Shown: one piece after another, positions 2,276 to 49,241 of the stretch
Position numbering within the stretch: position 1 is the first letter of the stretch
Layout: the number at the start of each line of letters is the position of its first letter
Assembly: GCA_944323995.1 (NCBI GenBank)
Contig: CALUUN010000001.1
Coordinates: forward strand, 124,001-188,000
From: Candidatus Gastranaerophilales bacterium
GTDB lineage: Bacteria > Cyanobacteriota > Vampirovibrionia > Gastranaerophilales > Gastranaerophilaceae
DNA length: 64,000 bases
Reading direction: 5' to 3'
Translations under genes and position numbers: made by a program
The notes under the pieces: generated by a model
Database searches by the model: none
What the model was told of the DNA's origin: nothing
The model's input: the letters and a program-made list of their open reading frames with translations, nothing else

Positions 2276-3577
2276 ATGAAAAGGTTATTAATTATTTTAA
2301 TATTAATCATCACATGCCCGGGCACAGTTCTGGGCATTAGTGATGTAAAAAAGGTATACCTTACCGAAGCCATTGACGCAGCTTTGAAAAACAATCTTGA
2401 TCTTCAGGCGGCACAACTTGAAGTGAATATTGCACAGAACAAAATAAAGACCGCAAACAGGCTCCAAAACCCTTCTGTCGGAGCGTTTTATTTTCTGGGT
2501 GCCGCAGGCAGAGGAGAGCCAAAACAAATAGGAATAAGCGAAGATATTGAAATCGCAAAACGCGGAGCCAGAAAAAATCTTGCAAAATCTAATCTGGAAC
2601 TTGTTGAAAAAAATGTTGCTTACACCAAATTTGACCTTAAAATGGATGTAAGAGAAGCATATATAAACCTTGTAGCCGCAAAGTCAGTTCTTGATACTCT
2701 TGAACAGCAAAAATCACTTCAGGAAGAACTTCTGGAAATCGCGGAAAACAGGGTAAAACAAAAAGAAGTTCCCGAAATTGATGTTATTCAGGCCGAAATT
2801 GCTCTTAACCAATTAATCACACAGGTTAATACGGCCAGAGTAAACGTGAATACAGCACTTGCCGACTTCAATAAAATAATTAACGACCCTAATAAAGTAG
2901 TTTACGACAGTAAAGATAAACTTTTTTCGGAAGAAAACAACTTTGCGGAAATGCTTACGCCGCCGCCTACATACAAGTTCCCGCCATTCAATACAATTAT
3001 TGAAAGGGCACTTGAAAACAGGTATGACATAAAAATTGCAAAACAGGAAATAGACCTTGCGGAAAAGAATTTGACCGTTGTTGCAAGACAGCGGATTCCG
3101 GACATATCAATAACCGGAGGATATGCTTACCAGCTCGGCAGATACTCTGACAGCGGCAATTTTAATAACGGAGCCTATGCCGGCGCAAGCCTTGTTAACA
3201 TCCCGTTATTTTACAACTACTCCCCTGAAATTCAAAATGCAGCATATAAAGTGCGACAGGCTGAATTGAAATATACTTCGGCAAAAAATAAAGCAATTAA
3301 AGATGTCAGTGCAGCCTACGAAAAATTTCTGACCGCTGTCGAAAATCTTAACTACTACGAAGACAAAATTCTAAAAAGTTCGGAAAAAATGATAGATATA
3401 TCAATGGACAGCTATGAACACGGCAAATCGGATATTACTGCGCTCATTGTAATGAAACAGGCATATAAATCAATTATAGTCGGCTACACCTATGCCTTGA
3501 GCGAATACTACAACAGCTGGACAAATTTCTTGAGAGAAACCAATGACGAAGATTTTGAACTGAATGAAGATGTGTAA
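2276..3577 (+). CDS. TolC-family outer membrane efflux protein
   Basis: Outer-membrane channel subunit expected to form a trimeric barrel with a periplasmic alpha-helical tunnel for type I secretion or RND/MFS-coupled efflux. A signal peptide is clear (MKRLLIILILIITCPGTVLG). Two OEP repeats follow, each with long Asn/Gln/Ala-rich helices and the typical ALKNNLDLQAAQLEV and ALENRYDIKIAKQEI openings of TolC repeats. Length 433 aa is normal. No membrane-fusion protein or inner-membrane pump is adjacent, so the partner is elsewhere. An extended -10 (TGCTATAAT, 2258-2266) sits 9 nt before the ATG and there is no ribosome-binding site, so the mRNA is probably leaderless. Confidence 0.85.
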   Translation: MKRLLIILILIITCPGTVLGISDVKKVYLTEAIDAALKNNLDLQAAQLEVNIAQNKIKTANRLQNPSVGAFYFLGAAGRGEPKQIGISEDIEIAKRGARKNLAKSNLELVEKNVAYTKFDLKMDVREAYINLVAAKSVLDTLEQQKSLQEELLEIAENRVKQKEVPEIDVIQAEIALNQLITQVNTARVNVNTALADFNKIINDPNKVVYDSKDKLFSEENNFAEMLTPPPTYKFPPFNTIIERALENRYDIKIAKQEIDLAEKNLTVVARQRIPDISITGGYAYQLGRYSDSGNFNNGAYAGASLVNIPLFYNYSPEIQNAAYKVRQAELKYTSAKNKAIKDVSAAYEKFLTAVENLNYYEDKILKSSEKMIDISMDSYEHGKSDITALIVMKQAYKSIIVGYTYALSEYYNSWTNFLRETNDEDFELNEDV

Positions 3578-3579
3578 AA

Positions 3580-4551
3580 ATCAATCCGCGTTATGAGCGA
3601 GCAAATATCGTTTTTAATTCAAAAACTGTAATACAAAATTACAATCAAAATCAACCGAGAGTACCAAAAGGCAATCCGAATGGCGGGCAGTTTTGCGGTA
3701 GTAATAAAGCTCATTATGCTTCTTATAATGATTTTGTTAATGAATTTTCTGATTATATAGAAGATGTACCAGAAGATTATAAAATCAGCGATGTAGAAGA
3801 AGTTAAGAAAGATTTAGGCGTTTCTGAAAATCAACCGAAAATAATTAAGACACCTATTGAAGAAGTTGAATTAAGGGCAGATAGGATTGAACACATCATA
3901 AACGGTGGCGGTGACGGACATTTGCCGGATAAAACACGTTACAAATGTATTAATAAAATGCTTGCAACTTTAGAAAGACCAAATATAATTGTCGGTTATG
4001 ACAATGGTAATAAAGGGTATTACAAGGTATTCAAGGGTGAAAATAAAAATAAAAATCAAATTGTTTCAATCCATAAAGATGAAAACGGTGATTTTGTTTA
4101 TACAGCAATGCCCTCTGATAAGGGTTCAAACTATTTTATAAAACAAATAAATAAAGGTAATATCCTATATAAAAAGGCAGCCGGCACTCAAAAGAATGCC
4201 GCTGTCAATAACATTATAACCGATAACCGAGAAAATTTCAACCCTGATATTAAGAATAATGTACAAAATGATAAGGAGCAGGACATGGCACTATTAGACG
4301 AACTTAAAAAACTGATTACTAAGGTCGAAAACGACAAAGGAGAAGATATGGACGACAACAAAGAAAAAATTGAAAACGAAAAAGTCGATAAGCGTAAACT
4401 TATTGACGAAGTAGCAGGCATTATGAAGTCTGCCGGGGCTGATGACGAAAAAATCAGAACAGCCAAAAATGGAAAAACTTGCTGCTGCAATTTATTAACA
4501 AATGTAAAAAGGGAATTAAGAAACACTTTGATAAATATTTTTACGCTCTAA
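3580..4551 (+). pseudogene. Prophage remnant: head-morphogenesis C-terminus with nuclease-like domain joined to scaffold/protease tail
   Basis: The frame is open from 3568 through 4551 but has no credible start codon; the first possible start with coding sequence downstream is TTG 3922, which is internal. The translated stretch contains VPKGNPNGGQF, a motif common near the C-terminus of phage minor-head/SPP1 gp7-type proteins. It is followed by an LRADRIEHIINGGGDGHLPD...YYKVFKG...IVSIHKDENGDFVYTAMP region like the phage-associated Barnase/EndoU/ColicinE5-type nuclease domains. Then comes DKRKLIDEVAGIMKSAGADDEKIRTA, resembling the end of phage prohead protease/scaffold (DUF2213-like) proteins. 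After 4460 the frame seems shifted, since the next frame gives KMEKLA as expected for that family. I read it as a deletion-fused, frameshifted remnant of two phage structural genes. Confidence 0.6.
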
Positions 4552-24426: not shown

Positions 24427-25718
24427 TCAGAATATTTTTATGGGTTCTTTTATTTTCATCCGACAGTCATTTACAACTTCTTTGCATATATCGTCCTGAA
24501 CTGTTGTACCGCAGTATTTGACTGATTTTATATAACCTGTTTTGCAGGCGGCTGTTTTGTAGCCGCTATCTGTCAAAAGAAGTTTTATCTCTCGTCTGCT
24601 GCCCGTGAACACATCATACATGACGTTTACCTTTAACTGTTCACCCGATGGTGCGAAAGTTTCCGCCGGCAGTATTTTCCCTGATTTTAAAAGATAATAA
24701 GGAACCACATCATCATTCAGTTTTCCTTTGCCGGAATTTCCGTCGGTATCTATATAGATTAAAAAGCCCGAGCGGTCGTCTTCTTGTTCAGCATCCGATA
24801 ATATCTCAATATCCTCATAATCTGAGCCGATATATAATTTCAAGCCGTTTGCAAGTTCTATATGAGGCGTCAAATTCTTAAAATTACCGCCCGGTACTGC
24901 TGCTTGAACGGTTGCGACAGGCACACTGCAATCGCTTTTGTATTTATTAAAAGTCTGTTCCAATTTTTGGCAGAATAATGTCGTGTAATCTATTTCCTCA
25001 GGGGCGCCATCATCTATGCACACCGCCTGAGTGGTGGCGTAGACACGACCAAATTTGTACCAGACCGTGTAAGAGCCGCCGAATTCGCGGTGATATGCAT
25101 CGTTCTTGTCGTATTCCATACTCGACCACAGCCCAAACGCGGGACTGGGTGAGTTGATAAATCCCATCGATATTGCCATGTCGTTATCTCTTAGGCCATC
25201 AACTGATACTCCGTAGCTTGTACTTATGGTTGTGCCGGGGTACAAAACTCTTGCCAATTGGTCTAACTGTTGCTGACTAGGTAAAGTGCCCCCCATATCA
25301 TGGCATGCTTTTACTGCACCTGCCCAGTAGTCACTACCGTAGTAACATTCACTTATTCCGAGTTCTCCTTTTTGTGCTTCACAATCAGATAAACTCATTG
25401 CTGTTGGATAAAACGGAGCAGTGAAACATGTTCCGTCACTTAATTCAATTGCACAATCTGCCTCTTCATCTTCTTCTTCATCCTTAAAAAACCCCGGAAT
25501 AACATTTGCGGAAATATTCCGCATAAATTCATACCCCATATATTGTGATGCATAATCGACTTTTTTAAATTTCTTTATTGTAACCGGCAAAGTCACAACC
25601 ACGATAACCGCAATGATAACAAGGGCTGCGACCAGCTCAGCGACCGTAAACCCTTGCCTGGAGAGGGTTGTATAACGCCCCCCCCCGAGAAACCTGTAAT
25701 ACTCTCTATTCCAGCCAT
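24427..25718 (-). CDS. Prepilin A: phase-variable prepilin with C-type-lectin-like domain (OFF by frameshift)
   Basis: The ATG at 25718 has AAGGAGG 4 nt upstream and a strong promoter, but reading from it passes a G9 tract (25678-25686) and enters the wrong frame; G10 would join it to the pilin frame. The pilin part has QG|FTVAELVAALVIIAVIVVV (Gly/Phe cleavage site, Glu +5). Between Cys codons at about 25453 and 25020 lies a lectin-like domain (CAIELSDGTCFTAPFYPT, KACHDMGGTLPSQQQLDQL, LWSSMEY, AVCI) closely related to that of prepilin C. A further C-terminal domain contains IYIDTDGNSGKGKLNDD, as seen in other minor pilins. An alternative longer frame from 25770 bypasses the shift but lacks an SD and starts within the promoter. 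Likely a surface adhesin. Confidence 0.75.
25678..25686 (-). repeat. G9 homopolymer tract in prepilin A
   Basis: Nine consecutive C on the plus strand (G on the coding strand), 33 nt after the ATG and upstream of the prepilin motif. A candidate contingency tract: G10 or G7 restores the frame. Confidence 0.85.
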
Positions 25719-25741
25719 TCAGCCTCCTTCGTAACATGTTT

Positions 25742-25770
25742 ATTATATCAAATTTTGCAAAGTTATGCAA
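25742..25770 (-). promoter_or_regulatory. Promoter of prepilin A
   Basis: TTGCAT (25765-25770), 17-nt spacer, TATAAT (25742-25747) on the minus strand. It overlaps the divergent tatD promoter, so the two probably compete for RNA polymerase. Confidence 0.8.
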
Positions 25771-25782
25771 CCGTGTTATAAT
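25755..25782 (+). promoter_or_regulatory. Leaderless promoter of tatD
   Basis: TTGCAA (25755-25760), 16-nt spacer, TATAAT (25777-25782). The ATG of tatD follows after 7 nt, close to the expected transcription start. Confidence 0.8.
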
Positions 25783-25789
25783 TTTTTGT

Positions 25790-26551
25790 ATGAAAAATTA
25801 CCTGATTGATACACATGCCCACATAGATATGCTCGAAAATACGGAAAATGCAGTGCAAGAAGCCTATGATAACGGCGTAAAAAAAATAATTCTGCCCTGT
25901 GCATACCCCAAAGACATTAAAAAAATTTACGATATTGCCTTAACATACGGTAATGTTTACGCTCTTTTAGGTGTTCACCCCTCGGAAGCAAAAGACTGGA
26001 GCGACGATTTAGCCTGCGAAATAAAAGAACTTGCAAAACACCCGAAAATTAAAGGAATTGGCGAAATCGGACTAGATTATTACTGGGACAAGAGTTTCAA
26101 CGATATTCAAAAAGAGGTCTTTATAAAACAAATAAAACTTGCGAACGAGCTTAACCTCCCGATATGTGTTCATGACAGAGAAGCACACAAAGATACTTTT
26201 GATATATTATCAGAATTCAATCAAGGTTCAACCGTTGTAATGCACTGTTTCTCAGGCAGCGCAGAATTTGCAAAAGAATGCGTTAAAAAAGGCTGGTACC
26301 TTGCTCTCGGAGGTGTTGTAACATTTAAAAACGCCGTAAAAATGAAAGAAGTTGCCGCGGAAATACCGCTTGAAAACCTTTTGCTTGAAACCGACAGCCC
26401 GTATCTCACACCTGTTCCGTTCAGAGGAAAAGAAAACCGGCCGGCTTACGTGAAATATGTTGCCGAAGAAATCGCAAAAATCAGAAATCTGGATATTGAA
26501 TTTATAGCTCAAATAACCGCACAAAACGCAGAAAAGGTGTTTAATATATGA
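25790..26551 (+). CDS. tatD: TatD family metal-dependent hydrolase
   Basis: TIM-barrel metallo-DNase of the TatD/YcfH family. Metal ligands and motifs: IDTHAHID, GIGEIGLDYYWD, CVHDREAHKDT, VMHCFSGS and LLETDSPYLTPVPFRGKEN. The start at 25790 (MKNYLIDTHAH, 253 aa) is chosen because it begins 7 nt after a TATAAT; the in-frame ATG 25736 lies inside the promoter. The stop overlaps the tlyA start (ATGA), so the two are co-expressed. Confidence 0.93.
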   Translation: MKNYLIDTHAHIDMLENTENAVQEAYDNGVKKIILPCAYPKDIKKIYDIALTYGNVYALLGVHPSEAKDWSDDLACEIKELAKHPKIKGIGEIGLDYYWDKSFNDIQKEVFIKQIKLANELNLPICVHDREAHKDTFDILSEFNQGSTVVMHCFSGSAEFAKECVKKGWYLALGGVVTFKNAVKMKEVAAEIPLENLLLETDSPYLTPVPFRGKENRPAYVKYVAEEIAKIRNLDIEFIAQITAQNAEKVFNI

Positions 26552-43686: not shown

Positions 43687-44492
43687 ATGGCCAAAAATGC
43701 AGACTACATCACATCCTTGAGCGGGGGGGGGGGGGCTGTAAATCAGCTTCACGCGCTGAATACAGCAGTTTAATAACCCCGAAAGTTAAATCCGCATTTA
43801 CTTTAGCGGAAGTATTAATTACTCTTGCAATAATCGGCATTGTCGCAGCAATGACAATACCAGCTCTGGTAACTTCGTATCAGAAAAAGATTACAGCAGT
43901 TCGAGTAAAAAAGGCATATGCGGAACTGGTTCAAGTAATTAAGCTGTCAGAAGTGGATAATGGCAATATGGCAGCTTGGGATTTTGGAACTTACAATGAT
44001 GTAAATGAAACAAGGAAATTTTTAGAAAAATATATCTTACCATATTATAAAAATATTACGGAATGCAGTACGGGCAAGGATTATTCATGTGGTTATCCGG
44101 TAAGTGCTGCGGGGGTTAATTATCAGCTTGATAACGGCCTTGGCTTATCTTTTTTGAAAGATTTCAGCAAAAAGACAATTTATATAAATATTTCTCTTAG
44201 TACAAATAAGGGTGAAAATACTCTTTTAGGGCGTGACGCTTTTTATTTTGAAGTAGCAGACGGGAAAGTTTTTCCGGCAGGCTGGTACAACGGAATAACA
44301 CGTGAAGCAATATTAAATGATAGTTTTGTGCCGCCTTGGGATACCGGAGAAATTACATACATTTTTGCATGCAAAAAACTTCCTAAAGATGAAGAAGATC
44401 TGGAAGAAAATATTATATATGAATACAGACACGGTTGTACAGCGTTATTGTTTCTCGATAATTGGGAATTTAAGGATGATTATCCATGGTAG
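43687..44492 (+). CDS. Prepilin B: phase-variable prepilin (OFF by frameshift)
   Basis: ATG 43687 follows CGGAGGG by 7 nt and a consensus promoter. After 12 codons (MAKNADYITSLS) it enters G13 (43723-43735) and, in the given sequence, runs to a stop after 16 further codons. With G14 or G11 it would join the pilin frame: SAFTLAEVLITLAIIGIVAAM. Ala precedes the Phe at the cleavage site, as in the 11006-11740 prepilin, and the C-terminal LDNWEFKDDYP also matches that protein. The head holds several cysteines. A TTG at 43635 in the pilin frame lies within the promoter and is not a plausible start. The 3' end overlaps the convergent formyltransferase gene by 13 nt. Confidence 0.78.
43723..43735 (+). 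repeat. G13 homopolymer tract in prepilin B
   Basis: Thirteen G in a row in an AT-rich region, 36 nt after the ATG. The longest of the three tracts; G14 or G11 gives the ON frame. Confidence 0.88.
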
Positions 44493-48123: not shown

Positions 48124-49241
48124 CTATTCCGCCAAGCACACCGCCGGACTGTCGCTGTAGTAGCGGATGCTGGTCATCCGGAACGTGCACATGATGCCGA
48201 AGTGGCGGATGTACGCGATGTCCTTGCTGCGCTCCTCACTCGACCACAGCCAAAAGTCGAAGCTGGGAGAGGTGATGAACTTCCATTCAATTGCCAGGTC
48301 GTTGTCTCTGCTGCCCCAGCTTGTTGTATCATCAGTGTAGATTGTTTTACCGGGGTACAAATCTCTTGCTAATTGGTCTAACTGTTCCTGACTCGGTAAA
48401 CTTGAACCCATATCTTTACATGCTTTTACTGCGCCACCCCAGAAATCATCATATCCATCTCTACAATCTGTTATGCCAAGTTCTGATTGTCTTTCTATGC
48501 ATTCTGCATGGCTTAATGCTGTTGGATAGAAAGGTGCAGTAAAACATGTTCCGTCACTTAATTCTATTGCACAGTTGCTGCCTTCTAATGCAATATTTCC
48601 TATATCTCTTAAGTCATCACCTCTATTATTCGGATTCTTAAATCCGTCTACGTCATATAATATGGCTAAACAATCATTTACACCTATGCTTTCTTTTCCT
48701 ATTGTTATTTTGTTATTGTTATATGGGTCTTGAGTACAGGACGGATTATATGCTATTACTCCGTTTACACCGTTTGCAAACTGTACTGCTACCGTATTTG
48801 TATCCCAGTCGTTTTGTCCGAAGTTTTTAGCTTTTTTAACTTTAGACATGTCAACTTCTTCATCACCCCAGGTTACGGTATCAGCAAAGCATGTTGTTAT
48901 ATCATCGTTATCACATATTCTTGTTATCTTAATATGTTTAGATAATTCATCAACAAACGCTTCGGTTGTTGTATAACCTGCCAAGGTTCCTTGAACATTC
49001 ATAACTTTTAATGCTTCACCGAGTTTTCTCTGGAATACTTGTGATGCAGTGTTCCATGCTCTTTCCTGATAGTTCTGAATTAATGTCGGGATAGTCAGTG
49101 CCGCAACTATACCGATTATTGCCAAGGTAATTAAAACCTCCGCAAGCGTAAAACCTTTACTCCTAAATACCCCGAAACCCGCACGGTGAGAGCTTAAAGA
49201 AGTACCCCCCCCCATTTAGGCTGAAATCCACTATTCATCAT
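48124..49241 (-). CDS. Prepilin C: phase-variable prepilin with C-type-lectin-like, DGR-type variable domain (OFF by frameshift)
   Basis: ATG 49241 follows AAAGGGG by 8 nt and a consensus promoter. Reading from it enters G9 (49205-49213) and meets a stop soon after; G10 would connect it to KG|FTLAEVLITLAIIGIVAAL. An ATG at 49215 abutting the tract is in the pilin frame at G9 but has no SD. The pilin domain covers the first 200 or so codons. Then a lectin-like domain (CAIELSDGTCFTAPFYPTA, GGAVKACKDMGSSLPSQEQ, FWLWSSEE, AYIRHF, SPAVCL) runs to the stop. Its last 50 codons are GC-rich and mostly end in C or G, unlike the rest of the gene, as in DGR variable regions. Likely a diversifiable surface adhesin. 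Confidence 0.78.
48127..48290 (-). other. Candidate DGR variable region in prepilin C
   Basis: Coding strand from near TTC-ATC-ACC to the stop. Nearly all codons end in C or G, and over half are XXC (CGC, AGC, GAC, ATC, TAC, CAC, TTC, GGC, TGC), as expected when AAC template codons are randomised at A. The conserved scaffold WLWSSEE and PAVCL flanks it. The tail shares GGCGGTGTGC with prepilin A, a possible IMH-like element. Confidence 0.6.
49205..49213 (-). repeat. G9 homopolymer tract in prepilin C
   Basis: Nine C on the plus strand, between the SD-preceded ATG and the prepilin motif. G10 or G7 restores the frame. Confidence 0.85.

Follow-up and report, generated by a model that had tools for sequence, protein, structure and literature searches.

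Where does translation of prepilin A begin, if the Shine-Dalgarno (SD)-preceded ATG upstream of it lies in another frame? The gene lies in a 64,000-nucleotide stretch of DNA from a Candidatus Gastranaerophilales bacterium (assembly GCA_944323995.1, contig CALUUN010000001.1, positions 124,001 to 188,000), hereafter the window. A run of nine G residues stands between this ATG and the prepilin frame. We propose that replication slippage at such runs causes phase variation in a set of pilins diversified by retroelements, whose members would be OFF by default and one insertion away from ON. From the sequence comparisons described below, we put the probability of this reading at about 0.74.

The prepilin A locus

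A sequence-only reading of this locus had placed ATG 25718 4 nt past AAGGAGG, and both the spacing (CTGA, 25722-25719) and the coordinates proved exact. The G9 run begins 32 bases past the A of this ATG. Reading from ATG 25718 at G9 misses the prepilin and stops after 41 aa, against 416 aa in the prepilin frame, so the computed frames agree with the earlier claim that G9 puts the SD-preceded start out of frame. They also bear out that a tract of either G10 or G7 would fuse the two.

Between the tract and the prepilin signal motif, the prepilin frame contains no start codon, and only two starts lie upstream in that frame, TTG 25770 and ATG 25737. Position 25770 is the first base of the −35 box, TTGCAT. 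ATG 25737 has no SD and lies 19 nt upstream of ATG 25718; as it follows TATAAT by only 5 nt, transcription probably starts at this ATG or downstream of it. The positions of both rival starts, in the promoter or the vicinity of the transcription start, had been given correctly, with 25770 being a TTG.

The promoter itself was read by eye (Table 1). A TG sits one base 5' of TATAAT, and both boxes and their spacing are also kept in a paralogue, L062. The promoter was absent from the output of a consensus promoter scanner because TTGCAT matches TTGACA at only three of six positions. On the other strand, a neighbouring gene that looks, from its sequence, like a TatD-type hydrolase (25736-26551, +) is divergent from prepilin A, and the promoter regions of the two genes overlap. 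Upstream of L006, a tract-free orthologue in genome G002, the sequence is similar to that at this junction.

Table 1. Positions of the features discussed in the text (window coordinates, except for the two retroelements)
Feature	Position	Strand	Details
Promoter of prepilin A	25742..25770	-	TTGCAT 25770-25765, 17-nt spacer, TATAAT 25747-25742; read by eye
SD and start codon	25716..25729	-	AAGGAGG 25729-25723, ATG 25718-25716; out of prepilin frame
G9 tract	25678..25686	-	Presumed site of slippage; ATG 25718 in prepilin frame at G10 or G7
Prepilin A open frame	24427..25677	-	3' of tract, 416 aa, RYTTLSRQGFTVAELV... / RYTTLSRQGFTVAELVAALVIIAVIVVVTLPV...
Prepilin signal motif of prepilin A	25636..25653	-	GFTVAE; sequence and TIGR02532
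Diverged variable-region-like stretch of prepilin A	25008..25140	-	Mismatches at 23/45 template adenines vs 19/88 elsewhere, p 6e-4
Gene B, second gated prepilin	43687..44492	+	GGAGG-8nt-ATG 43687; G13 43723-43735; frame open to 44492
Gene C, third gated prepilin	48124..49241	-	SD-ATG 49241; G9 49213-49205; OFF, one base short
C-terminal variable region of gene C	48134..48255	-	20/25 differences at template adenines, Fisher p 2e-7
First retroelement (L088)	G000:C19:20200-25618		Avd 2098-2469 (PF22296, bAvd); template ~2673-2807; RT 2995-4191
Second retroelement (L089)	G000:C8:54000-58771		RT 2504-3619; Avd-like 3596-3976 (-); template near 4046-4217 (-)

Prepilin A scored 16.8 bits with TIGR02532 (cut-off, 16.3) and carries a class III signal, consisting of a GFxxxE motif and a hydrophobic helix. 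With the Pfam N_methyl model it fell under the cut-off, and genes B and C were over it. Residues 71-225 are predicted to adopt a C-type-lectin fold (pLDDT mostly >90), and the best structural matches of this region were the folds of Bd2740 (8oks; Z 9.5), EMS16 (Z 8.4), intimin (Z 8.1), and BDCA2 (Z 8.0), as well as that of Mtd, a retroelement-diversified protein (Z 6.9). Foldseek alone returned no matches for prepilin A at E ≤ 0.001. Outside residues 71-225 the model was poor. The C-terminal domain is conserved in orthologues.

Comparison with relatives located both the change and the start. The paralogue A' (L062), 74% identical to prepilin A, has the same SD, ATG, leader, and promoter boxes; between the SD and a point within the transmembrane segment, the two differ only at the tract, G9C versus G7AC. 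Two other leaders, with a single mismatch in 85 flanking bases, carry G10 and G12, and one leader cluster of genome G010 comprises 13 copies that are off by one base (one short) and three in frame; such length variation in near-identical sequence was seen between paralogues. The genome of prepilin A also encodes a third, tract-free paralogue, L249, which starts with AGGAG..ATG MFNKKKKSAFTISEL. Another paralogue, L250 (G005:C1:67000-69000), resembles a decayed, point-mutated tract kept in frame (ATTCGGGGAGTGGACGAC / CGGGGAGTGGACGAC) and is perhaps a locked-ON allele. In tract-free orthologues from other species, the SD-ATG directly precedes the prepilin motif. By these comparisons, the SD-ATG is the true start.

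Gated prepilins and their retroelements

Overlapping G8 words number 10 in the window, where 0.35 would be expected. They fall in three tracts, those of prepilin A and of genes B and C (Table 1), and each tract has an SD-preceded ATG before it and a prepilin signal after it. Gene B is OFF by being one base short, its readable tract lengths being 11 or 14. Across the whole genome, from which we read the stretches around tracts, there are 31 runs of G≥9, compared with ~1.3 expected from the window dinucleotides. An SD-ATG lies upstream of all 31, and a complete prepilin frame lies downstream of 28, the remaining three being contig-end fragments. The tracts are placed where a single-base change would switch the frame of one gene, they are enriched beyond chance, and they are concentrated in one functional class. 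All tract lengths reported here are those of the assembly consensus.

The paralogues of this large prepilin family contain long near-identical stretches. Seven contigs of G000 (C2, C3, C14, C20, C25, C26, and C27) terminate within or close to a leader that carries a tract. Such ends are expected if repeated leaders break the assembly, and some members of the family are therefore incomplete.

Relatives of the prepilin family, found by an alignment query of a named genome collection, belong to Candidatus Gastranaerophilales, non-photosynthetic gut Cyanobacteria; all named relatives found are metagenome-assembled. Long G runs were present in all 16 genomes of the genus (11 to 102 apiece), and an exact G9 occurred at least once in 40 of 60 genomes in the family. 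Among the tract-bearing stretches that we read from other species and genera, most have an SD-ATG on the 5' side and a prepilin motif on the 3' side; a few tracts outside the genus gave no SD-ATG/prepilin call. The gated layout was found in more than 100 genes overall. This recurrence, together with the paralogues and tract-free orthologues described above, supports at sequence level the G9 OFF/G10 ON switch that the sequence-only reading had implied. A search of viral contigs for the exact leader patterns found none.

In some prepilin leaders, C runs replace G runs. Leaders gated by C8-C11 were observed in L159, L162, L173, L205, L208, L213, L091, L121, L131, and L139, most of them one base short. 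We had considered the 'CGGGGGGGGG' tracts of G010 and G005, which have no open frame on the G strand, as a separate class; most of them turned out to be poly-C prepilin leaders on the opposite strand.

The genome encodes two reverse transcriptases (RTs), each accompanied by an Avd-like protein and a template repeat. For the first template, we found nine variable regions with mismatches concentrated at adenines (Fisher p 3e-4 to 7e-9), including that of gene C, and the genes holding these regions are tract-gated prepilins. The second template matches variable regions in other gated prepilins (L057, L069, L070, and L058); in three genes, 14-18 of 20-24 mismatches lay at A. The corresponding stretch in prepilin A has diverged, so this gene may be an old target and perhaps no longer a retroelement target. 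The first retroelement is complete, and the two prepilin genes flanking it share a leader with an in-frame G10 and are among the few ON copies; the copy adjoining the RT is L088:475-1767.

These features suggest how the switch might operate. Ribosomes would initiate at ATG 25718 and, at G9, would meet an out-of-frame stop, leaving no prepilin (OFF). If replication slipped and the tract gained one G or lost two, the leader would be fused to the prepilin (ON), giving a type IV pilin-like protein with a C-type-lectin-fold domain. As the same tract hinge would act on many genes of one pilin family, many of which would also be diversified by the two retroelements, a cell would possess a set of variant lectin pilins, most of them silent, and slippage would expose a few of them at once. 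Because the usual OFF length is one below ON, the ON state would arise by one insertion into a longer, presumably less stable tract. The lectin domains of silent copies could meanwhile be diversified by the retroelements. We infer that slippage occurs in living populations and that the ON state is unstable, and the products would probably be displayed on the pilus surface and bind ligands there.

The one-base-short bias and competing explanations

We counted 119 distinct tracts that have a strong SD: 81 were one base short, 20 were one over, and 18 were in frame. When the majority state of each leader cluster was counted, 36 clusters were one short, eight were one over, 10 were in frame, and four were tied. 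The one-short excess by cluster gave p 6e-7 (2e-4 to 6e-8 at other thresholds), values that serve as a guide since related leaders are not independent. In genus G037, 10 tracts were read, nine of them located via a fixed-spacing pattern; eight were G10, which is one base short, and a G11 copy was in frame. With G10 as the usual length and G11 as the readable length in this genus, the bias does not follow from a favoured absolute length. The same observation weakens the idea that G9 is a mutational resting length. That G9 is common to many copies of one leader type could mean low mutability at that length.

Both wrong frames usually close soon after the tract. OFF frames met a stop within five codons past the tract in 76% of one-short and 68% of one-over cases (~25% if random), and 84 of the 101 OFF genes had no alternative SD-preceded start in the prepilin frame. 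In the MAKNADYITSLS leader class of the genome studied here, tract lengths of 10, 12, and 13 were present, and the readable lengths, 11 or 14, were absent. Free drift would predict a smaller excess of one particular off state than was observed, which leaves room for models based on programmed recoding or a silent reservoir.

Programmed recoding is the main rival, because it too would favour one-short tracts. Under this explanation, the tract would stay fixed at one base below the readable length, and −1 ribosomal frameshifting or G addition by RNA polymerase (transcriptional slippage) would yield a small but constant fraction of product, so that all copies are expressed at a low level. The dominance of the one-short state across leader types, G and C tracts, lengths of 9, 10, 12, and 13, and genera fits a −1 frameshift or a +1 nt slippage. 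However, the 20 cases that are one over and the 18 in frame are not what such a mechanism would favour, and early stops close both wrong frames, not just one. In addition, the lengths of 10, 12, and 13 place both off states inside one leader class, which weakens the idea that every copy relies on the same programmed −1 shift. We consider recoding unlikely.

A silent-cassette reservoir, in which OFF copies act as gene-conversion donors to a few expressed copies, appears quite improbable. In Neisseria, type IV pilin varies by gene conversion from pilS to pilE, and the silent pilS copies lack their own expression signals. Prepilin A likewise belongs to a type IV pilin family with many silent copies; the size of this family, its long near-identical stretches, the few in-frame copies, and the existence of ungated copies would all fit such a reservoir. 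Unlike pilS, however, the copies here have their own SD and start codon: OFF copies retain SD, ATG, and leader, and gene A also retains its promoter. Moreover, near-identical leaders differ in tract length, and a single class includes some in-frame copies.

We give still less weight to homopolymer errors in sequencing or assembly, with the true tracts being in frame. Reference tract lengths can indeed be wrong or mixed: in Bifidobacterium breve, a tract annotated as G11 was measured as ~37% G11 and 60% G12 (PMC9187656), which shows that reference lengths can mislead. However, several genomes assembled independently of one another share the same off state, errors would not select one state regardless of absolute length, and the tracts are far above their expected number and are placed in prepilin leaders. 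Least probable of all is that translation begins at another codon of the prepilin frame, be it ATG 25737, TTG 25770, or a non-canonical one, and that the G run is simply coding: although an in-frame ATG does lie just upstream of ATG 25718, it has no SD and adjoins TATAAT, the TTG lies inside the −35 box, the gated paralogue retains the SD at the equivalent of ATG 25718, and most OFF genes lack an alternative SD start.

Relation to known systems and implications

Slippage-driven phase variation thus remains our preferred reading, and parts of it have counterparts elsewhere. In Campylobacter and Neisseria, the genes gated by poly-G tracts are diverse. Unlike in these bacteria, essentially all long tracts here lie in one gene family and at a single place in it, the leader ahead of the prepilin peptidase site, with most of them one base short. 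The likeness is that the contingency loci of Campylobacter and Neisseria also comprise many G tracts per genome that gate surface-related genes by frame (PMC6321876, PMC5953494).

The nearest documented case is the switch of B. breve, where, as here, a G tract lies between the secretion signal and the rest of a pilin of a gut commensal. In the sortase-dependent pili of that species (bbr_0113 and bbr_1889), the tract splits the pilin signal from the body and slippage restores the frame; in mice, the apparently pilus-permitting tract length was enriched (PMC9187656). B. breve differs in being an actinobacterium with sortase pili, one or two loci per genome, and no retroelement, whereas dozens of copies are gated here.

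The retroelements of Bordetella phage (Mtd) and of Bacteroides have a pair of template and variable repeats, adenine-specific change, an RT, Avd, and a target with a C-type-lectin fold, as here. Type V tip pilins are retroelement targets in Bacteroides, as far as the account of Macadangdang et al. 2024 in PMC12632263 goes; on that account the Bacteroides targets are type V pilins, whereas those here are type IV pilin-like prepilins. We found no report of poly-G gating of retroelement targets, nor of so many gated targets. For Gastranaerophilales, literature that mostly excluded subscription papers and preprints contained no report of phase variation, of retroelement-diversified pilins, or of both combined. 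The notable features of the present system are its scale, its coupling to retroelements, and its one-base-short default.

More tentatively, the pilin set may be order-wide, with many members diversified by retroelements and the set held exactly one nucleotide short by G or C tracts. Expression might then occur via programmed recoding, transcriptional slippage, or a deliberately asymmetric slippage switch with a stable OFF and an unstable ON state, and hypervariable lectin pilins would undergo diversification in the silent state, with a few being exposed at any one time.

The one-short bias is directly testable using existing metagenome reads. We also predict that many surface-variant genes in metagenome assemblies of this kind are misannotated, being recorded as truncated or given wrong starts. 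If our reading is true, a gut lineage of Gastranaerophilales joins two diversity engines on one pilin family, namely hypermutation of the lectin domain and gating by poly-G or poly-C tracts.
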